This document shows positions 1-33,087 of a stretch of 33,087 nt of DNA, in pieces. A program made the translations under genes and the position numbers. The DNA is from Betaproteobacteria bacterium. Lineage in GTDB: Bacteria > Pseudomonadota > Gammaproteobacteria > Burkholderiales > Burkholderiaceae_C. Below the pieces are notes generated by a model that saw nothing but the letters and a program-made list of their open reading frames with translations, was not told the origin of the DNA and made no database searches. The DNA is taken from contig JANYBQ010000190.1 of NCBI GenBank assembly GCA_025360705.1, positions 1 to 33,087 of the forward strand, read 5' to 3'. Position 1 is the stretch's first letter, and every line of letters starts with the position of its first letter.

Positions 1-84
1 TACGCCCCGGAGATGCCAGATGAGGAAATCCTCAAACGCCTGCTGGCGCTGAACCTTGACCGGGCAAATACATTCAAACCATAA
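1..84 (+). CDS. C-terminal tail of a probable DNA methyltransferase (partial)
   Basis: Reading frame 1 is open from the window edge to a TAA at 82-84 and gives 27 residues containing MPDEEILKRLLALNLDRA. That tail resembles, from memory, the last residues of large DNA methyltransferase or combined restriction-methylation proteins of the type IIL (MmeI-like) group, which often end in a D-E-I-L-x-R-L-x-A-L-N-x-x-R stretch. Nothing of the catalytic part is in the window, so the identity is an inference from a short tail only. The next gene, hicA, starts 26 bases downstream, behind its own promoter-like element. Confidence 0.5.
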   Translation, partial: YAPEMPDEEILKRLLALNLDRANTFKP

Positions 85-100
85 GACACTAAAATATAGT
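73..100 (+). promoter_or_regulatory. Probable hicAB promoter with overlapping palindrome
   Basis: A -35-like TTCAAA (73-78) and a -10-like TATAGT (95-100) are spaced by 16 bases. The -10 box is the right arm of a short inverted repeat, ACTA-AAATA-TAGT, at 88-100. HicB antitoxins with C-terminal DNA-binding domains usually repress their own promoter, so this repeat is a candidate operator; that is inference. The segment is clearly more AT-rich than its surroundings. Confidence 0.45.
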
Positions 101-110
101 ATCATTTGCA

Positions 111-365
111 ATGCAGCGCAAACACCGGCGAACATTGGAACTGGTCTTCTCGCGCCCGGTTCCGGGAGGCGTCAAGTGGCGCGACGTCGAAGCTCTGCTG
201 GTTGCGCTCGGGGCGGAGATTTCGGAGCGCGAAGGGTCACGCGTGGGTGTGAAACTGTTTGCGGACCGGCGGGTGTTCCACCGCCCGCATCCGTCGCCCG
301 ACACCGATAAGGCAGCGGTGGAAAGCATTCGCAAATGGCTGGAGACCAATGGAGTGAAACCATGA
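111..365 (+). CDS. hicA: HicA-family toxin (predicted mRNA interferase)
   Basis: An 84-residue basic protein with the layout of the HicA subfamily that starts MxxKHRRTLE, followed by W-R-D-V-E-A-L-L-V-A-L-G (about residues 23-34) and by GSR and FHRPHP near residues 42-60. HicA toxins have a double-stranded-RNA-binding fold and cleave mRNA in the absence of HicB. The classical G-S-H motif reads G-S-R here, as I recall for this subfamily; the catalytic histidine may be one of the two in FHRPHP. The ATG at 111 matches the family's N-terminus but has no Shine-Dalgarno sequence. The stop overlaps the hicB start as ATGA (362-365), a translational coupling typical of toxin-antitoxin pairs. Confidence 0.85.
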   Translation: MQRKHRRTLELVFSRPVPGGVKWRDVEALLVALGAEISEREGSRVGVKLFADRRVFHRPHPSPDTDKAAVESIRKWLETNGVKP

Positions 366-10676: not shown

Positions 10677-11447
10677 TCAATGTCCTCCCGTGCCCAGATA
10701 GGCCTCGATCACTTTTTCATTTTTCTGAACTTCGGCCGGCTGGCCTTCGGCAATCTGTTTGCCGTAGTCCAGCACTGTTACCCGGTCGCACAGACCCATG
10801 ACCAGCTTCACATCGTGTTCGATCAAGAGGATGGTGCGCAGGTCTTTTCGGATCTGGTCGATCAACACGCGCAGCTGAACCTTCTCGGTTGCGTTCATGC
10901 CGGCAGCAGGCTCGTCCAGTGCGATCAATTGCGGGTCGGTTGCCAGCGCACGCGCGATCTCCAGCCGGCGCTGGTCGCCATAACTCAGCGTACGCGCACG
11001 ATAGTCGGCAAATTTTCCAATGCCCACATAGTCCAGCAACTCCTGCGCGCGCTTTGCGATCGCGGCTTCTTCGGCCTTGAAACCAGGCGTCCTGAAAACC
11101 GCGCCGACCAGGCCGGAACTGGTTCGGATATGGCGGCCCACCATGACGTTTTCGAGCGCCGTCATTTCCGCGAACAGACGGATGTTCTGGAATGTGCGTG
11201 CAATACCCGCCTTGGCCACCTCATGCACCGCCGTCGGTTTATAAGGTTTTCCCACAAGCTCGAAGGTCCCGCTATCGGGTGTGTACAAGCCGGTAATGAC
11301 GTTGAAGAACGTGGTCTTGCCCGCGCCATTGGGCCCGATCAGGCCGTAGACCTGTCCACGTTCGATGGTGATGCCCACGTCGCTTAGGGCCTGCAAACCG
11401 CCAAAGCGTTTTGAGACACCGGCAACTTTCAGGATGGTGTCAGTCAT
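10677..11447 (-). CDS. livG: Branched-chain amino-acid ABC transporter ATPase LivG
   Basis: A 256-residue ABC ATPase. Walker A is GPNGAGKTTFFNVITG, the signature LSYGDQRRLEIARALA and Walker B LIALDEPAAGMN, with the Liv-specific EHDVKLVMGLCDRVTVLDYG stretch and the C-terminal EAYLGTGGH that defines this subfamily. The start at 11447 gives MTDTILKVAGVSKRFGG, the normal N-terminus; the open frame extends further upstream into livM but without family similarity. It pairs with LivF as the heterodimeric motor on the cytoplasmic face. Confidence 0.94.
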   Translation of the reverse strand: MTDTILKVAGVSKRFGGLQALSDVGITIERGQVYGLIGPNGAGKTTFFNVITGLYTPDSGTFELVGKPYKPTAVHEVAKAGIARTFQNIRLFAEMTALENVMVGRHIRTSSGLVGAVFRTPGFKAEEAAIAKRAQELLDYVGIGKFADYRARTLSYGDQRRLEIARALATDPQLIALDEPAAGMNATEKVQLRVLIDQIRKDLRTILLIEHDVKLVMGLCDRVTVLDYGKQIAEGQPAEVQKNEKVIEAYLGTGGH

Positions 11448-11457
11448 GGCAGCCACC

Positions 11458-12537
11458 TTATGCGTTGGTCTGAAGCGACTTGCCGTGGTCCGGCGTGGGC
11501 CACAGGCCACGCGGCCGCAACAACATCACGACGATCATTGCCAAGGCGATCAGCAGTTGCCGCAGGATCGATGCGTCCAGGCGCCCGCCGGTCGCGTTCT
11601 GCAGCGGACTGGCGACATAACGCAGCACCTCGGGCAGCGCTGCCAGCAACAGCGCGCCAACCACGACACCTGGCAGATGACCCAGGCCACCCAGCACGAC
11701 CATGGCCACGATCATTACCGACTCCATGAGGGTGAAGGACTCGGGCGACACAAAACCCTGGAACGACGCGAACAGCGCCCCGCTGACACCCCCGAACGAG
11801 GCGCCCATGCCAAACGCAAGCAATTTGAGATTGCGCGTGTTGATGCCCATCGCCTTGGCGGCGATCTCGTCTTCGCGAATCGCCATCCAGGCGCGTCCGA
11901 CACGCGAGAACTGCAGCCGGTAACTCAACACAATACTGACCAGCACCGCTGCCAGGAACAGGTAGTAGTACATCGCCACCGACGTAAGCTGGAAATTACC
12001 AATCATGAACGGCTTGCCGAGGCTCACGCCGAAGAGGCTGAACGGATCGATCCCGGCCAGGCCCTTGGGACCATTGGTGATGTTGACCGGCTGGTCCAGG
12101 TTATTCAAAAAGACCCGGATGATCTCGCCGAAACCCAGGGTCACAATGGCAAGGTAGTCGCCGCGCAGCTTCAGGGTGGGGACTCCAAGCTTATTTCCTA
12201 AAAACGCCGCGACTCCCGCCGCGAGCGGAATGATGATCCATATCGGCGTGTGCAGTCCGTGAGGAAACATCGCCGCGATCCAGGGGAACACCTGCGTCAA
12301 CTGCGGCGACGCGAGCAACGCGTATAGATACGCGCCCACCGCGAAGAACGCCACATATCCCAGATCGAGCAGGCCAGCGTAACCCACCACGATGTTCAGG
12401 CCGATTGCCAGCAAGACGTAGAGCAAGGCGGTGTCCGCGATCCGGACCCAGGCGTTGCCGAAGGTCTGGAGGAACATGGGTATCAGCAGCAACACGATGG
12501 CGCCGACGATGTAGAGGATGACTTTGTTGTTCTTCAT
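11458..12537 (-). CDS. livM: Branched-chain amino-acid ABC transporter permease LivM
   Basis: A 359-residue polytopic permease with about nine to ten hydrophobic helices. It contains the LivM hallmarks GLNIVVGYAGLLDLGYVAFF near residue 46-65, LRGDYLAIVTLGFGEIIR, and the cytoplasmic loop RVGRAWMAIREDEIAAKAMG that docks the ATPase (EAA-like loop), ending in LRPRGLWP. It forms the transmembrane channel with LivH. The gene is 10 bases upstream of livG and 12 bases downstream of livH, one transcription unit. Confidence 0.94.
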   Translation of the reverse strand: MKNNKVILYIVGAIVLLLIPMFLQTFGNAWVRIADTALLYVLLAIGLNIVVGYAGLLDLGYVAFFAVGAYLYALLASPQLTQVFPWIAAMFPHGLHTPIWIIIPLAAGVAAFLGNKLGVPTLKLRGDYLAIVTLGFGEIIRVFLNNLDQPVNITNGPKGLAGIDPFSLFGVSLGKPFMIGNFQLTSVAMYYYLFLAAVLVSIVLSYRLQFSRVGRAWMAIREDEIAAKAMGINTRNLKLLAFGMGASFGGVSGALFASFQGFVSPESFTLMESVMIVAMVVLGGLGHLPGVVVGALLLAALPEVLRYVASPLQNATGGRLDASILRQLLIALAMIVVMLLRPRGLWPTPDHGKSLQTNA

Positions 12538-20470: not shown

Positions 20471-21685
20471 TTATGAGTGGGCTGCCCGCAACTTCAGCGA
20501 GAACTCGCGCAGCGCGGATATTCCGCTATCTTCCGCACGGCGACACCAAGCCTGAAGGTCGCTCGCCAATTGCTCGCGCGAGTGGGATGTGTTAAGCCAC
20601 AACTGGCGCAACTCTTCGCGCATCGTCACCATTTTGTCCAACACCGGATGCGCAGCCCGCGCCTGGGCAAGTTTTGATACCGCCGTCACTGGCACTTTAT
20701 CGGCATCGCGATGCAGCCAGCGTCTGGCAGCCTCCAATACCGCTACGTCACCACGCCGGGCCTTCAACGTCGCGATTTCCGCCTTGCATGCCCGGCGCAT
20801 GTCCTTGGCGTAACCGGCCATGACTTCATAACGATTGGCGATCAGTGCCTCCAAGGTTTTTTCATCCGCAACCGGTCTGATATTTCCCAACTGCAATTTC
20901 GGTGGCGTCTTTTTCACCCGGGCCAAACCAACTTTTTCCAGAAGACTGATGTAAACCCAACCGATGTCGAACTCATAGGGCTTGACCGAAAACTTCGCAG
21001 AGGTCGGATATGTGTGGTGATTGTTATGCAACTCTTCGCCTCCAATCAGTATGCCCCATGGAACGATATTGGTGCTGGCGTCGGGTGCTTCAAAATTACG
21101 ATAGCCCCAATAGTGGCCGATGCCGTTGACCACACCGGCAGCAGTGACCGGTATCCAGACCATCTGCACCGCCCAGACCGCGAGACCAAGCGCGCCAAAA
21201 AGGGCCAGGTCCAAAATCATCATCAGGCCCACGCCCTGCCAGCTATAGCGCGAATAAACGTTGCGCTCAATCCAGTCGTTCGGGCAACCTTGGCTGTATT
21301 TGCTCAAGGTTTCCTGATTCTTGGATTCGGCGCGGTACAACTCGGCGCCTTGCCAAAAGACTTTCTTGATGCCATGGGCAACCGGACTGTGCGGATCGTC
21401 TATGGTTTCGCACTTGGCGTGATGCTTGCGGTGAATCGAGACCCATTCCCTGGTGACTTGTCCCGTGCCAACCCACAGCCAGAACCGGAAAAAGTGCGCC
21501 GGGATCGCGTGCAGGTCCATCGCGCGATGGGCTTGGTGGCGGTGCAGATATATGGTGACACTGGCAATCGTGACGTGCGTGGTGAGCAACGTATACAGCA
21601 CGACCTGCCACCATGACAAGTCCCAAAACCCATGCGACAACCACTCAACGGTCGCATTTAAAACTGCCCAGTCGGGTAATACCAT
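20471..21685 (-). CDS. Fatty-acid (acyl-CoA/acyl-lipid) desaturase
   Basis: A 404-residue membrane di-iron desaturase. The three His boxes are HRHQAH (48-53), HRKHH (85-89) and HNNHH (220-224), in the spacing of delta-9 type desaturases, with hydrophobic segments at about 22-46, 62-78 and 150-190. It is predicted to introduce a double bond into saturated acyl chains, so adjusting membrane fluidity. The C-terminal part (about 260-404) is a long charged, helical extension without His boxes. The start ATG at 21685 is the natural one. The gene converges on rpmG with a terminator between them. The 143-base gap upstream (21686-21828) shows no gene and no convincing promoter. Confidence 0.88.
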   Translation of the reverse strand: MVLPDWAVLNATVEWLSHGFWDLSWWQVVLYTLLTTHVTIASVTIYLHRHQAHRAMDLHAIPAHFFRFWLWVGTGQVTREWVSIHRKHHAKCETIDDPHSPVAHGIKKVFWQGAELYRAESKNQETLSKYSQGCPNDWIERNVYSRYSWQGVGLMMILDLALFGALGLAVWAVQMVWIPVTAAGVVNGIGHYWGYRNFEAPDASTNIVPWGILIGGEELHNNHHTYPTSAKFSVKPYEFDIGWVYISLLEKVGLARVKKTPPKLQLGNIRPVADEKTLEALIANRYEVMAGYAKDMRRACKAEIATLKARRGDVAVLEAARRWLHRDADKVPVTAVSKLAQARAAHPVLDKMVTMREELRQLWLNTSHSREQLASDLQAWCRRAEDSGISALREFSLKLRAAHS

Positions 21686-21828
21686 ATTTATGAAATCTCT
21701 GAAAAAGTACTCTGTAAATTCAGACTAGTCGTCAGCCACAAAAGAGGGGATATTCTAATGCCGCGTAGCAAGTTTGACCGGTTCAAAAGCTCGCAAAGCG
21801 TAAAAGTTAACAAATATGCGTCAAAGAC

Positions 21829-23100
21829 CTATTTCTTCTGCCAAATTGCAGCAAAAAAACCATCTGTGTTATGTATGTGGGGCCATGTCCTGAAGTATTT
21901 AAGGCCATTTAAACCCCCGCTACATAGGCTGGACGCTCTTTCTACCTTTAAGTTGGTCATGATTTCTCCAGCGTCAAGGGGGCAAAAATCGACATTCAAT
22001 TCAGAAAAAGACTGCGCGATGGCCTCGTTTTCCTGTGGCAGCAAACTGCAGGTGGCATAAACCAGCCGCCCGCCCGGTTTCAGTAGCCGGGATGCGCTTT
22101 TCAGAATAGCCGCTTGCTTGAGCGACATTTCGTTAACCGAATTCATGTTTTGGCGCCATTTGAGGTCTGGATTGCGCCGCAATGTGCCTAGCCCGGAACA
22201 CGGAGCATCGACAAGCACGCGATCGATCTTTCCCGCAAGCCGCTTGATGCGTTCGTCGCGCTCATGGGCGATCGCTACCGGATGCACATTGGATAGCCCG
22301 CTACGCGCCTGCCGGGGCTTGAAGGCCGCCAGACGATGCGCAGATGTATCGAACGCATACAGGCGACCGGTACTGCGCATGCTTGCACCCAAAGCCAGGG
22401 TCTTGCCACCTGCGCCAGCACAAAAATCCACCACCATCTCGCCACGCCCGGCGTCTACCAGCATCGCCAGCAATTGCGATCCTTCATCCTGAACCTCGAA
22501 TGCGCCTCGCGTGAACGCGGCCATCTTGTCCACGGCCGGTTTGCCGGCGATACGCAGGCCCCATGGCGAGTAAGGCGTAGGCACGGCCTTGATGCCAGCC
22601 TGCGCAAGTTCTTTTTGCACTTCCGCGCGTTTGGATGTAAACGCATTGACGCGCAAATCCAGACCGGCGCCAAAATTCAGGCTCTCGACCAGCGGCCAGA
22701 AGCCAGCGCCAAGCTGGTCCTTGAGCGGCTGCACCAACCACTCGGGCAAGTTGTGGCGATGGCGTTCCATCAGATCGGCCAGATTGATTTTCTCGCACTG
22801 ATCGAGCCAGTTCTTTTCCTGCTCGCTCAAAGCGCTGCGCAAAAAATCCCCGGGACCATGAAACCCCAGAATCGCCAGGCGCCGCTCTTTAGGGCCACTG
22901 CCTGACGGTGCGCAATGGTCGAACAACAGCTTTTTGCGCAGAACCGTATAAACGGTCTCGGCCAGCGTGGCGCGTTCGCGCGGTCCCAGGCTGCGGTGAT
23001 CGCGAAAAAATCGCGACACGATGGCGTCCGCGGGATGGTCGAATTTGAGAGTGAGCCGTATCAGTTCAGAACAGGCTTCAAGCAAGGCGTTAGGATGCAT
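21829..23100 (-). CDS. RsmB/NOP2-family RNA (cytosine-5) methyltransferase
   Basis: A 423-residue SAM-dependent methyltransferase. An N-terminal NusB-like helical region (about 1-135) is followed by the Rossmann-type catalytic domain with the SAM-binding VVDFCAGAGGKTLAL (223-237), DAPCSGLGTLRRNPDLKW (298-315, C301) and YATCSLLPQENE (348-359, C351). The two Cys residues serve as nucleophile and release group in m5C formation. E. coli RsmB modifies C967 of 16S rRNA; this protein belongs to the same family but could have a different target nucleotide. Ends with WPHIHNTDGFFAAIW, the usual C-terminus. Gene order rsmB-like after purN on the same strand suggests possible co-transcription across a 141-base gap. 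Confidence 0.88.
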   Translation of the reverse strand: MHPNALLEACSELIRLTLKFDHPADAIVSRFFRDHRSLGPRERATLAETVYTVLRKKLLFDHCAPSGSGPKERRLAILGFHGPGDFLRSALSEQEKNWLDQCEKINLADLMERHRHNLPEWLVQPLKDQLGAGFWPLVESLNFGAGLDLRVNAFTSKRAEVQKELAQAGIKAVPTPYSPWGLRIAGKPAVDKMAAFTRGAFEVQDEGSQLLAMLVDAGRGEMVVDFCAGAGGKTLALGASMRSTGRLYAFDTSAHRLAAFKPRQARSGLSNVHPVAIAHERDERIKRLAGKIDRVLVDAPCSGLGTLRRNPDLKWRQNMNSVNEMSLKQAAILKSASRLLKPGGRLVYATCSLLPQENEAIAQSFSELNVDFCPLDAGEIMTNLKVERASSLCSGGLNGLKYFRTWPHIHNTDGFFAAIWQKK

Positions 23101-26998: not shown

Positions 26999-28315
26999 AT
27001 GGCGGCCATATTGGGGACCCCCGGCGAATGGACCCATAAGAACGATACCGAGGGCTTCGACCATTGGCTGACCAGCAAATCGTTCTCGTTGCTGGCCCCT
27101 ATGTGCCGTATCGGCCTGGTCGTGGTCGCGGCAATTCTGTTGATGGTGGATCCAATCCTGTACCACTCCGGGGTTTGGGGAGGTAAACCGCAACACTTGC
27201 AACTCGTGACCTGGCACGCCTGCGCGTTGCTGTACTTCCTGGCCTTCCATGTGCTGGCGCGCTCCGGCGCAACCCATGCCGCGCGCACCCGTTGCCTGAT
27301 TGCTTTTTTTATTGTCGGTGCGGCACTGTTTTTGTGGTTCGCACTGGTCTCTTGGATGCTCAGCGGCGATCTGTCGACCTATGCGATTTTCCTGCTGACC
27401 ATGGTCTGCGTATTCGGCTTTCCCGGCCCCGTGCGCCAGATCATCAATGTGGCCAGCACAGTGGCCCTGACATTTTTTATATTCTGGTTCGATCAACGCG
27501 GAACGTTTTACATCAACGGCGCCATCATCAACCTGGTGGCGCTGGCGGTCGCATCGCTGCTAATCGACGGTTACCTGATGAACCTCAATCGGGCGCTGTA
27601 TCGCGAGAAGCGCCTGGTGGAATACGAACGCGCGCGGGCCGACCGCGTGTTGTACAACGCACTGCCGATGTCGATTGCCAACGAACTCAAAATCAACAAC
27701 GTCGTAAGGGCCGAGAAGTACCAACACATGTCAGTGCTTTTTGTCGACATCGTGGGTTTTACGCGGTTCGCGGCGAACCGCCCGCCGGACGCCGTGGTGC
27801 AGGTTCTGAATGAAATATTTTCTGAATTCGACACATTGGTGGACCGCTACGAGGTAGAGAAAATCAAAACCATAGGGGACGCCTACATGGTGGTCGGCAA
27901 AGGCAATTTGCCCGCGGTGGCGAATCTGTCGCTCGAGATGCTCACCAGCATGGCGGCATATAGCCGGCGTACCGGATTCGATCTGGCGATACGTAGCGGT
28001 ATCCATGTCGGTCCGGCAGTGGCGGGTGTTATCGGACTGAAGCGATTCCTCTATGACGTCTGGGGCGACGCCGTCAACATCGCAAGCCGCATGGAGTCCC
28101 TGGGCGAGGCCGGAAAAATTCAGGTGAGTGAAGAAGTTTTCAGGGAACTCGAACCGAGCTTCCAGTTCCAGCCCAGAGGGGAAATCGAGGTCAAAGGAAA
28201 AGGCGCGATGCGCACCTATTTCCTGACGGCTAAGCCATCAGACGCGACGACTTCGGCAAATGCGTCATCAGGAACTCCATCTGGTCGGCAAGAATGCGCC
28301 GATTGCGCAGTATGA
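26999..28315 (+). CDS. Membrane-bound class III adenylate cyclase
   Basis: A 438-residue protein with six transmembrane helices (about 31-52, 67-88, 97-122, 125-142, 146-164 and 171-194), a short linking helix and a C-terminal cyclase domain (about 240-412). Catalytic residues by comparison with mycobacterial Rv1625c are metal ligands D250 (VLFVDIVGFT) and D294 (IGDAYM), substrate-specifying K290 and D353 (YDVWGDAVNIASRM), N360 and R364. Lys/Asp predicts ATP, hence cAMP, rather than GTP. One domain per chain means it works as a homodimer. The ATG at 26999 has GGAGG four bases before it; an ATG at 26984 is possible. The tail after residue 412 (Ser/Thr-rich, then CADCAV) overlaps the HNH gene and is not part of the domain. 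Confidence 0.9.
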   Translation: MAAILGTPGEWTHKNDTEGFDHWLTSKSFSLLAPMCRIGLVVVAAILLMVDPILYHSGVWGGKPQHLQLVTWHACALLYFLAFHVLARSGATHAARTRCLIAFFIVGAALFLWFALVSWMLSGDLSTYAIFLLTMVCVFGFPGPVRQIINVASTVALTFFIFWFDQRGTFYINGAIINLVALAVASLLIDGYLMNLNRALYREKRLVEYERARADRVLYNALPMSIANELKINNVVRAEKYQHMSVLFVDIVGFTRFAANRPPDAVVQVLNEIFSEFDTLVDRYEVEKIKTIGDAYMVVGKGNLPAVANLSLEMLTSMAAYSRRTGFDLAIRSGIHVGPAVAGVIGLKRFLYDVWGDAVNIASRMESLGEAGKIQVSEEVFRELEPSFQFQPRGEIEVKGKGAMRTYFLTAKPSDATTSANASSGTPSGRQECADCAV

Positions 28316-28787
28316 AGTCTTCCCACAAGCTGGGCACATAAGGCGTATACAACAGCGGCATATGCGCCTGCTCGGGCGTACGGCTGCTCTTGCGATGGTT
28401 GCAGGGACGGCACGCGGTGACCACGTTCATCCAGTGATCGACGCCGTGTTGCGCGAACGGAACGATGTGTTCACGCGTCAGGCTTTCCTCGTGAAAATGC
28501 TCGCCGCAATAAGCGCAAATATTACGATCACGGGCAAACAGCTTGCTATTGGTCAGTCCGGGCTTGAGGTTGAACGGATTGATATTGGGCACGCCCTTGG
28601 TCCCGATGATGCTGTTGACCGTGACGATGGACTGTTCACCGGTGATCGCGCTATGTCCGCCATGGAACACCGCCACCTCGCCGCCGGATTCCCAGCGCAC
28701 TTCGCCGGCGGCGTAATGAATCACCGCTTGTTCGAGGGAAATCCAGGACTGGGGCAAGCCCTGGGCCGACAGCTTCAAGACCTTCAA
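28230..28787 (-). CDS. HNH endonuclease family protein
   Basis: A 185-residue protein. Residues 1-80 form a conserved N-terminal region (VLKLSAQGLPQSWISLEQAV and later NSIIGTKGVPNINP). The HNH domain spans about 84-135: zinc ligands C91, C94, C126 and C129, the catalytic EHIVP with H107, and ACRPCNHRK. The C-terminal region has YTPYVPSLWEDFILRNRRIL and KSSRL. The domain implies a metal-dependent nuclease or nucleic-acid-binding role; the wide occurrence of this form in betaproteobacteria, as I recall, argues for housekeeping rather than defence. I choose the TTG at 28787, with AGGAG eight bases upstream and a family-like start MKVLKLSAQ; an ATG at 28856 would add 23 residues over a palindrome. 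Its 3' end overlaps the cyclase gene by 86 bases. Confidence 0.82.
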   Translation of the reverse strand: MKVLKLSAQGLPQSWISLEQAVIHYAAGEVRWESGGEVAVFHGGHSAITGEQSIVTVNSIIGTKGVPNINPFNLKPGLTNSKLFARDRNICAYCGEHFHEESLTREHIVPFAQHGVDHWMNVVTACRPCNHRKSSRTPEQAHMPLLYTPYVPSLWEDFILRNRRILADQMEFLMTHLPKSSRLMA

Positions 28788-28841
28788 AACACCACTCCTG
28801 AAACAATACAAGAAACCGCTAATGCGAAATAATTGGCTGCC

Positions 28842-28860
28842 GCCAATGCTGGACATTGGC
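28842..28860. repeat. 19-bp inverted repeat between hnh and ribF
   Basis: GCCAATG-CTGGA-CATTGGC has perfect 7-bp arms around five bases. It lies 55 bases upstream of the proposed TTG start of the HNH gene and 36 bases before the -35-like box of ribF, a normal place for an operator that serves either of the divergent genes. No regulator can be assigned. Confidence 0.45.
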
Positions 28861-28895: not shown

Positions 28896-28923
28896 TTTAA
28901 ATGCGCCGTAGGTGCGCTATAAC
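28896..28923 (+). promoter_or_regulatory. Probable ribF promoter
   Basis: TTTAAA (28896-28901) and TATAAC (28918-28923) are spaced by 16 bases, matching four and five of six consensus positions. Transcription would start near 28930, leaving a leader of about 80 bases before the ribF ATG at 29011. Confidence 0.45.
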
Positions 28924-29010
28924 GCGACACGCCGTGCTATCAAAAACGAAGTCCGCAAGCAGATTTACATTTGTGTGGAACGCTGGTCGCAACCAAAACA
29001 TGACACTCTC

Positions 29011-30021
29011 ATGAAAGTTTTTCGCGGTTTCAATCATTCCCGTATGGCAGGTGCATGCGCGCTGACAATCGGCAATTTCGATGGGGTGCATCGCGGCCAT
29101 CAAGCCATGCTGGCTTTGCTGCGCGGTGAAGCCGCGCAACGCGGCGTACCCAGCTGCGTGCTGACCTTTGAGCCGCATCCGCGTGATTATTTTGCTGCTG
29201 TCACGGGCAGGCGGGAATTCGCGCCCGCACGTATAGGCACGCTGCGCGACAAGTTGACCGACCTGGCCAACTGTGGTGTTGAGCAAACCGTGGTGCTGCG
29301 ATTCGATGCCCGCCTGGCAGCCCAGTCACCGGCCAATTTTGTCGACTCGGTGCTATTGCGCGGACTGGGTGCCAAATATGTTCTGGTAGGCGATGATTTC
29401 CGATTTGGAGCTCAGCGCGCGGGCGATTACGCGATGCTGGACGCGACCGGCGATGCCCGTGGCTTCGACGTGGCCCGCATGAACAGTTACGAAGTGCACG
29501 GCTTGCGAGTATCCAGTTCCGCGGTGCGCGCCGCCCTGGACGAGGGCCGCATGGACGACGCCGCCCGTTTGCTCGGGCGCCCTTATTGCATCTCCGGGCA
29601 TGTTGTGCATGGGCGAAAACTGGGCCGCGAACTGGGATTTCGAACCCTAAATCTGCGCTTCGCGCACTGGAAGCCGGCGGCTAGCGGCATATTTGCGGTG
29701 CTGGTCCACGGGTTGGTGGACATGGCTGTGCCCGGCGTCGCGAATCTGGGCATTCGACCCTCGCTGAACCCGACTGATGTGAACGGCGGACGCGTACTGC
29801 TTGAAACCCATTGCCTGGATTGGCCGGCCGCCTTGGCGCCTGAGGCGGGCTACGGTAAAATCATTCGGGTGGAACTGATACATAAACTGCACGGCGAACT
29901 CAAATACGATGGCTTGGAAGCGCTGCGACGCGGCATCTCCAGGGACTGCGACGGCGCGCGCCACTACTTCGTTTCGATGCATACCAAAACGCATCGGCAA
30001 ACCACACGCGACCGAATTTAG
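29011..30021 (+). CDS. ribF: Bifunctional riboflavin kinase / FAD synthetase
   Basis: A 336-residue cytoplasmic enzyme that phosphorylates riboflavin to FMN and adenylates FMN to FAD. The N-terminal FAD synthetase domain has GNFDGVHRGHQAML (21-34), FEPHPRDYF and VGDDFRFG (127-133); the C-terminal kinase domain begins near 190 with GHVVHGRKLGRELGF and contains GVANLGIRPS and ETHCLDW. The kinase motif usually written G-F-P-T-A/L-N reads GFRTLN (R211), possibly a lineage trait. The ATG at 29011 gives the standard start; an upstream in-frame ATG at 28912 lies within the promoter. It precedes ileS and lspA, a very common order. No FMN riboswitch was recognised. Confidence 0.94.
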   Translation: MKVFRGFNHSRMAGACALTIGNFDGVHRGHQAMLALLRGEAAQRGVPSCVLTFEPHPRDYFAAVTGRREFAPARIGTLRDKLTDLANCGVEQTVVLRFDARLAAQSPANFVDSVLLRGLGAKYVLVGDDFRFGAQRAGDYAMLDATGDARGFDVARMNSYEVHGLRVSSSAVRAALDEGRMDDAARLLGRPYCISGHVVHGRKLGRELGFRTLNLRFAHWKPAASGIFAVLVHGLVDMAVPGVANLGIRPSLNPTDVNGGRVLLETHCLDWPAALAPEAGYGKIIRVELIHKLHGELKYDGLEALRRGISRDCDGARHYFVSMHTKTHRQTTRDRI

Positions 30022-30174: not shown

Positions 30175-33075
30175 ATGACTGAAAAAACCGATTACCGCAG
30201 TACCCTGAATTTGCCCGAGACGCCGTTCCCGATGCGCGGCGACCTGCCCAAACGCGAGCCCGGCTGGGCCAAAGAATGGGACGAAAAAGGCATCTACAAG
30301 AAGTTACGCGATGCGCGCGCCAATGCGCCCAAGTTCATCCTGCACGACGGCCCGCCGTATGCCAACGGGCAGATTCACATGGGCCACGCGGTCAACAAGA
30401 TCCTTAAAGACATGATCGTCAAGGAGCGCCAGCTGGAAGGCTTCGACGCGCAGTACGTTCCAGGCTGGGACTGCCATGGCCTGCCGATAGAAAACGCGAT
30501 AGAAAAGAAGTTCGGCCGCAATCTGCCGCGCGACGAGATGCAGGCCAGGAGTCGCGCCTTCGCCACTGAACAGATCGGCATCCAGATGGCCGACTTCAAG
30601 CGCCTGGGTGTGCTGGGCGAGTGGGACCATCCGTACCGCACGATGGATTTCAAGAACGAGGCCGAAGAGATTCGTGCATTCAAACGCGTGGTCGAGCGCG
30701 GCTTCGTTTACCGAGGGCTCAAGCCCGTGTACTGGTGTTTCGACTGCGGCTCTTCGCTGGCAGAGTTCGAGATTGAATACGCGGACAAGAAATCGCAGAC
30801 GGTGGACGTGGCCTTTCTGTGCGCCGAGCCGGAGCGGCTTGCCGCAGCGTTCGGGCTGGTGTCGCTGGATAAGCCTGCCTTTGCCGTGATCTGGACCACT
30901 ACCGCCTGGACCATCCCAGCCAACCAGGCCCTCAACTTGAATCCGGACTTGCCTTACGCGCTGGTAGACACCCAGCGCGGTTTGCTGGTGCTGGCCGAAA
31001 GTTTGGTGCAAGCGTGCCTGGAGCGTTACCAGCTTACCGGCACGGTCATCGCTACAACACCGGGCAGATCGTTGGCCGGAATCAATTTCCAGCATCCGCT
31101 GGCGCGGGTCGACGCCGGGTACGACCGCATGTCGCCGGTCTATCTGGCGGACTACGCTACTGCCGACGACGGTACCGGTCTGGTGCATTCATCGCCGGCC
31201 TACGGCGTGGAAGATTTCAACAGTTGCGTGGCGCATAGCCTGGCGCTTGAGAAAATCCTGAACCCGGTTCAGGGAAATGGCAGGTACGCCGCTGAATTCC
31301 CGCTGTTCGGAGGTCTCAATATCTGGAAGGCCGTGCCGGAAGTCATCCACACGCTGCGCGACGCCGACCGGCTGTTTGCCACTTCCGAGCTGCAACACAG
31401 CTACCCGCATTGCTGGCGCCACAAAACACCCGTGATCTACCGCGCCGCGGCGCAGTGGTTCATTCGCATGGACGAAGGTGTTGGCGTTTTCACCAAGGAC
31501 AAGGCGCCCAAAACGCTACGCCAGATGGCGCTGGATGCGATCGAGCAGACCGCCTTTTATCCCGAGAACGGCAAGACGCGCTTGCGCGACATGATTACCG
31601 GACGGCCCGACTGGTGTATCAGCCGCCAGCGTAGCTGGGGCGTTCCCCTGCCGTTTTTTATCCATCAGGATTCGGGTGAGCTTCATCCCCGCACGATGGA
31701 AATTCTGGACCAGGCTGCTGCCATGGTGGAGGCCGGCGGTATCGAGGCCTGGAGCAAGGCCAAGCCGGAATCCATCGTCGGCCAGCAGGACGCGCAGGTC
31801 TATACCAAGAGCAGCGACATTCTGGAGGTCTGGTTCGACTCGGGCACAACCCACACGACTGTTCTCAAGGGTTCGCATCCTGGCAGCGCGCACGAAGAAA
31901 TCGACCCTCTGACGGGTGCGCCCGGCCCGGAAGCAGACCTGTACCTGGAAGGCCACGACCAGCACCGCGGCTGGTTCCACTCATCGCTGCTGACGGCCTG
32001 TGCGATGTACGGCCGTGCGCCGTATAAAGGCATTCTGACCCACGGCTTTACGGTTGACAGCCAGGGCCGCAAGATGAGCAAGAGCCTGGGCAACGGTGTG
32101 GATCCACAGGAAACCTGGAAAAAACTCGGCGCCGAGATCATCCGCTTGTGGGTGGCGGCCAGCGACTATTCGGGCGACATCGCAGGCGACGAAAAAATCC
32201 TTGCACGTGTGGTGGATACCTACCGGCGCATCCGAAACACACTCAAGTTTTTGCTGGCCAACACCAGCGACTTCGATCTGGCGGTGGACGCAGTGCCGCT
32301 GGACCAGATGCTGGAAATCGATCGCTACGCATTGAGCCGTGCTGCCCAACTGCAGGCCGACATACTGGCGCACTACAAGGTGTACGAATTTCATCCGGTG
32401 GTATCCAAGCTGCAAATTTATTGCAGCGAAGATTTGGGTTCGTTTTACCTCGACATCCTCAAGGACCGCCTCTACACAACGGCGCCGAAGTCGCTGGCCA
32501 GGCGCAGTGCGCAAACCGCGTTGTGGCATATCACCCAGGCGATGCTGCGCTGGATGGCGCCGTTCTTGAGTTTTACCGCGGAAGAAGCTTGGAAGCTAGT
32601 GGGCAAATCGGAATCCATCTTTATGGAGACCTTCGCTAAGCTCGATGCGCCAAACGAGATGCTACTTGCACGATGGTCGCAAGACCTTATGCGACTCCGG
32701 TCCAAAGTTCTTCGGCAAATTGAAAAGAAACGCGAGGGGGGTGAGATTGGCTCCAGCCTTCAGGCAGAAGTGACCATTACCTGCAGCGATGAAAAAGCGG
32801 TTTGGCTTCGCGAGTTTGATGGAGCCGATAACGAGTTGAAGTTTATTTTCATTACTTCTAAAGTTTCGATTGTTGTAGATGAGCAATTAAATGGACACCG
32901 CGAAAGCGAAGAGTTGGAACTTACCTTTGTGGATGTCATCGCGAGCGCTCAAACAAAATGCGAACGCTGCTGGCACTACCGCGATGACGTCGGCCAGGAC
33001 CCCGAGCACCCGACCATCTGCGGCCGCTGCACGAGCAACCTGTTCGGTGTTGGCGAAGAGCGAAAGTTCGCGTAA
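30175..33075 (+). CDS. ileS: Isoleucyl-tRNA synthetase
   Basis: A 966-residue class I synthetase charging tRNA-Ile, with editing of Val-tRNA-Ile. It has the HIGH counterpart HMGH in [16 protein letters not shown] (about 66-81), [16 protein letters not shown] in the editing domain, the [15 protein letters not shown] and KMSKS motifs, WFDSGTTH, an anticodon-binding helical domain and a C-terminal zinc finger CERCWHYR...CGRC. Length and domain order are those of bacterial IleRS type 1. The start [20 protein letters not shown] is standard. Between about 32580 and 32960 the base composition turns AT-rich although the frame is intact. The stop overlaps the next ATG as TAATG. Confidence 0.97.
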
Positions 33076-33087
33076 TGGCAAAGACTA
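33075..33087 (+). CDS. lspA: Start of a probable lspA (signal peptidase II), cut by the window end
   Basis: ATG at 33075-33077 overlaps the ileS stop by one base and reads M-A-K-T before the window ends. Four residues do not identify a protein; the call rests on the ribF-ileS-lspA order, which is widespread in proteobacteria. Confidence 0.45.

Follow-up and report, generated by a model that had tools for sequence, protein, structure and literature searches.

The isoleucyl-tRNA synthetase gene ileS of the window, by which we mean the whole stretch of 33,087 nucleotides analysed here, contains a tract encoding residues 831–926 (positions 32665–32952; plus strand, as for all features unless stated otherwise) in which the protein departs sharply from those of its own genus, with an identity of 0.29–0.38 to four congeners versus ~0.89 before the tract. 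The tract corresponds to a predicted long helix and a small alpha-beta part located just 5' of the zinc finger. The best single reading is that homologous recombination replaced one short ileS subdomain, in frame, by that of a diverged ileS, and we give this slightly better than an even chance. An assembly chimera ranks clearly below this reading, and plain divergence lower still. We infer recombination as the cause, as well as the place of exchange and the function of the product.

The gene ileS (30175–33075) encodes a type 1 enzyme of 966 amino acids, which scores 823.9 bits against TIGR00392 (curated cut-off 621.4) and carries the Pfam domains tRNA-synt_1, Anticodon_1 and zf-FPG_IleRS. The HIGH and KMSKS active-site motifs are present in its translation as HMGH and KMSKS, and the Pfam catalytic domain ends at residue 670. 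The reading frame is open from position 30175 to the stop codon at 33073–33075, in agreement with the original prediction that the frame stays open through an AT-rich segment inside the gene. The C-terminal zinc finger, a type 1 trait, lies at residues 928–954 (32956–33036; PF06827, 35.1 bits, cut-off 21.3), where the protein is family-like again. Type 2 IleRS is described as having no C-terminal zinc finger (PMC10485003). The start of lspA is overlapped by ileS by one base, and ribF (28912–30021; NF004159 and TIGR00083 above cut-off) is the upstream neighbour. Upstream of ribF, a small HNH-endonuclease-like frame (CAYCGE ... H ... CRPCN) was recognised by eye on the minus strand at 28230–28856.

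We compared the encoded protein with its homologues; out of 102, 15 duplicate or partial sequences were set aside, together with a further one that was identical in its last 300 residues. The median identity of the window protein to the four congeners falls from 0.89 over residues 410–800 to 0.30 over residues 831–926, whereas the congeners compared with each other fall from 0.89 to only 0.59, and the medians for the rest of the family are 0.78 in the body and 0.57 in the tail. Over the last 40 residues the identity to the congeners is back to 0.70–0.78; the segment is thus far more divergent from the congeners than both of its flanks, as expected of a mosaic. Within the tract, the median identity to the genus is lower than that to the family (0.39) or the order (0.40), and the median to rows of the wider class is only 0.36. 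When the relation of tail identity to body identity was fitted with all pairs involving the window excluded, the window protein had a lower mean residual (z −3.4) than any other of the 87 sequences, and its body–tail gap is the largest of the 37 rows (window included) that have a neighbour of 0.85 or more. A lesser discordance of the same kind occurs in L048, L103, L004 and L027 (0.38–0.41), which counts against the replacement. In addition, one extra residue follows W834 in the window protein and in none of the 86 others.

The last well conserved part on the 5' side of the tract is a 16-residue stretch, residues 791–806 (32545–32592), which is nearly invariant in the aligned family rows; a start-motif filter had removed two loci at the alignment stage, and one truncated locus was excluded. 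The protein still looks family-like over residues 807–834, where the shift in codon usage has already begun, and the DNA identity to L004 declines gradually at this edge, with 0.80, 0.77, 0.57 and 0.44 in successive blocks of ten codons; both points count against the replacement. At the zinc finger, the identity returns abruptly, which argues against plain divergence.

The tails of the congeners themselves are of two types over residues 831–926, that of L004 and that of L005, L006 and L073, with an identity of 0.46–0.51 between them; the latter type carries a four-residue insertion. Because three kinds of tail are thus found among five genomes with the region (the window included), and the bodies are all ~0.9 alike, the IleRS subdomain 5' of the zinc finger might be an exchangeable module that is repeatedly replaced in this genus, an extension that we regard as improbable.

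A second peculiarity of the tract is its loop length. In the window protein, 34 residues separate the FITS motif from the zinc finger, as compared with 22 in all four congeners and 21–25 in all 42 other family rows. The spacing is 22–26 in 10 of the 11 other rows of the order, with 44 in the eleventh (L088); for the remaining class rows it is 30–38 in 28 of 29. Row comparison assigns the additional length to a 12-residue stretch, residues 906–917 (32890–32925), and residues 909–914 within it have a predicted pLDDT below 50. Judged from these rows, a spacing of 34 residues is typical of the wider class and foreign to the family. The loop length counts against plain divergence and fits a replacement and an assembly chimera alike; it raised our estimates for both of these slightly, the replacement from an even chance to just above it, and lowered that for divergence somewhat more. 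The signals on the source are mixed, as the class-like loop length stands against the low identity of the tract to those same class rows.

The composition of the segment was what drew attention to it. The G+C counts given in the original prediction are exact, with 47 of 120 bases (39.2%) at 32821–32940 and 78 of 120 (65.0%) at 31921–32040, and the AT-rich segment as a whole (32580–32960) has 47.2% G+C. Stretches of 120 bases with at most 47 G+C occur at only two places in the 33-kb window, 21639–21926 and 32771–32961. We trained a codon-usage score on ileS codons 1–790 together with the window's other genes; its mean falls from 0.24 over those 790 codons to −0.13 in codons 821–925, and the maximum-scoring low segment covers codons 803–907 (32581–32895), with none of 5000 codon shuffles as extreme. 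The protein-divergent part sits slightly 3' of this segment. The drop exceeds chance for ileS. Among 106 mechanically picked reading frames of at least 200 codons from the window, contig C481 and 20 sampled contigs (six masked), only three show a larger internal drop, which means that the shift in composition, although real, is not rare in this genome. An internal lspA promoter behind the dip was rejected, since a scan for sites of the sigma-70 type found none in 32400–33087.

The most AT-rich place of the window, 21639–21926 (44 G+C in 120), takes in the end of rsmB with its stop codon and the intergenic gap beyond. We considered the AT-rich C-terminal end of rsmB as a second mosaic and rejected it, because the congeners are equally unlike each other there (0.33–0.53, residues 361–400).

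That an AT-rich and variable end such as that of rsmB is ordinary among congeners lends some support to ordinary fast divergence, in which the IleRS tail is variable, codon usage is relaxed and this lineage is an extreme case that involves no foreign DNA. This explanation is also consistent with tail identity below body identity throughout the family, and with the behaviour of GC3. Thirty-eight of the 42 other family rows lose GC3 in the region, seven of them by more than 0.15 and the largest by 0.22, and in L013 it goes down to 0.34 in residues 880–926 with no unusual protein divergence. Because of these losses in the family, the dip is partly a family trait, and the dip alone is weak evidence. 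By comparison, the window shows a GC3 change of −0.26, the largest drop of the 87 sequences and 3 sd beyond the mean of the 42 family rows. A dip shared by close relatives would speak against the replacement that the original prediction had proposed; it is not seen in the four congeners that have the region, whose GC3 changes by only −0.01 to −0.06. This small loss in the congeners counts against plain divergence, as do the unique extra residue and a loop 12 residues longer than in all 46 genus and family rows. In these alignments the tract stands out through its protein divergence and loop length rather than through the dip, and we hold plain divergence to be unlikely.

In a body tree built with a quick method, the window groups with its genus (97), whereas the tail tree (81 columns) places it outside its own family, with other families of the order and closest to L096, L098 and L088. 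Its end branch is 0.93 in the tail tree versus 0.11 in the body tree, about eight times longer, which counts against plain divergence. AU tests on the 81 columns of the tract, on the other hand, reject neither a genus clade (p 0.236) nor a family clade (p 0.327), a result that leaves room for divergence; the genus without the window is also not one group in the tail tree.

No close source of the tract was found, the best identity to another genome being ~49% over part of the query among the matches listed. The tract has matches in 305 of 369 class genomes at E 0.001, in 14 of 399 order genomes and 23 of 299 family genomes at E 1e-10, and in 5 of 299 phylum genomes at E 1e-9, with its own genome included in each count. 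A search of GTDB contigs gave nine loci, and 72,556 plasmid records gave no match. In the families of two of the best non-family tail matches (5 and 28 genomes), no donor appeared at E 1e-11, a threshold stricter than the earlier best scores of those genomes, so that this search shows little. A literature search returned no report of a mosaic bacterial ileS among the matches listed.

The main competitor of the replacement is an assembly chimera, in which the assembler switched to the ileS of another organism at the conserved stretch and back at the zinc finger, so that the mosaic gene exists in no cell. As contig C320, the window belongs to a draft in 701 contigs (94% complete, 2.8% contaminated), a fragmentation that speaks for this explanation. 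The last 72 bases of the window contig (33016–33087) have an exact copy in contig C481 (G000:C481), where they are flanked by lspA in one direction and by unrelated DNA in the other. Upstream of the shared 72 bases, C481 matches 24 of 33 zinc-finger bases and then enters an unrelated Asp/Ser-rich frame that has no Pfam match. This locus (L033, C481 positions 10841–11726), a genus-like lspA and ileS end joined to the Asp/Ser-rich frame, looks like a chimeric contig; the frame may be of a kind that occurs in Planctomycetes. C481 thus appears to carry a false join opposite window position 32983, ~30 bases beyond the tract, which lends weight to a chimera in the window as well. The lspA of C481 is 82% identical to that of L004, 76–79% to those of L005, L006 and L073, and 75% to the best of another genus, and because it fits the genus best, the 3' flank of the tract looks native too.

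The edges of the tract bear on the same question. Its 3' edge starts with 26 bases identical in L004 (the first 26 of the zinc finger) and 29 in L008, enough for a small-k join, and this stretch could be a switch site for recombination as well as for small-k assembly. Exact runs there are otherwise short, with 17 bases to L005 and 14 to L006, whereas to L073 no run reaches 12, and no run longer than 14 bases occurs in 32560–32700; these runs speak against a chimera, although only six relatives were compared and the true partner may have been another. Furthermore, a chimera needs two in-frame switches within ~300 bases of the window contig. Searches of the bin by both DNA and protein found the tract in the window contig only and a congener-like, native-type ileS tail nowhere else in the bin, and this too weakens the case for a chimera. 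A search for a contig-start overlap, from which the assembler's word length could be learned, gave no second copy of window positions 1–150. In a simulated set, 228 (0.3%) of the 74,581 contig fragments are reported to have been mixed (PMC5607848). On balance, we regard an assembly chimera as possible, with distinctly lower odds than the replacement.

The predicted structure is compatible with a functional hybrid. An AlphaFold model of the last 326 residues, with nine sequences in the alignment, has a pLDDT of 84; block means across the tract are 75–94, falling to 64–69 in residues 901–920, and residues 909–914 are the only stretch of at least three residues below 50. In this model, the tract, which sits after the anticodon-binding bundle and before the zinc ribbon, comprises a long helix, one strand, a pair of helices and a pair of strands. 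The C-terminal model superimposes on S. aureus IleRS 1qu2 with a Z of 31.9 and an rmsd of 2.3 over 304 aligned residues, and it also aligns with 8c9f/8c9e and with H. pylori IleRS 8wnf. A working enzyme is likely and an altered tRNA contact possible. The remark in the original prediction that the change may alter mupirocin sensitivity finds no support, as the tract belongs to the C-terminal tRNA-binding part, past the catalytic domain. Mupirocin is reported to bind the IleRS active site (PMC10485003), and because the tract lies outside that site, no effect on mupirocin is expected. Identity with the mupirocin-resistant MupA and MupB was rejected (258.6 and 287.7 bits, respectively; cut-off 1900 each).

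Under the favoured homologous replacement, ~290–370 bases of ileS, encoding the subdomain that follows the anticodon-binding helices and precedes the zinc finger, would have been exchanged in frame for the corresponding part of a type 1 ileS that is diverged and lower in GC. The exchange sites would lie in or near the conserved flanks, namely the 16-residue stretch at residues 791–806 and KCERCWHYR. The hybrid enzyme should still charge tRNA-Ile, since native sequence flanks the tract on both sides and the IleRS fold is predicted to be preserved within it. The replacement claimed in the original prediction is partly supported by the divergent tract, the foreign loop length, the genus-like flanks and the four congeners with no dip, and it is tempered by the usual GC3 dip of the family, the AU tests, the lack of a donor and possible chimerism at the contig end; that the source was a lower-GC relative is only possible. 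If real, this would be a case in which only part of an essential aminoacyl-tRNA synthetase gene was replaced, indicating that the catalytic part can stay in place while the tRNA-binding tail is exchanged, and gene trees based on ileS would be disturbed. If it is an artefact, the lesson is that a single-copy marker gene at the end of a draft contig can be a hybrid. Neither outcome would much surprise specialists.

Intragenic mosaics that arise from homologous recombination in housekeeping genes are a known kind of event. The tract resembles them in being in frame, in having conserved flanking DNA, in being genus-like on both sides and in differing in composition inside; it differs from them in lacking a found donor and a significant tree conflict, and in being known from an assembled draft alone. 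As compared with bacterial type 1 IleRS (IleRS1), the window gene shares the TIGR00392 assignment, the zinc finger and both active-site motifs, whereas its residues 831–926 are far from the genus, with the additional residue after W834 and the lengthened loop setting it apart from the family rows.
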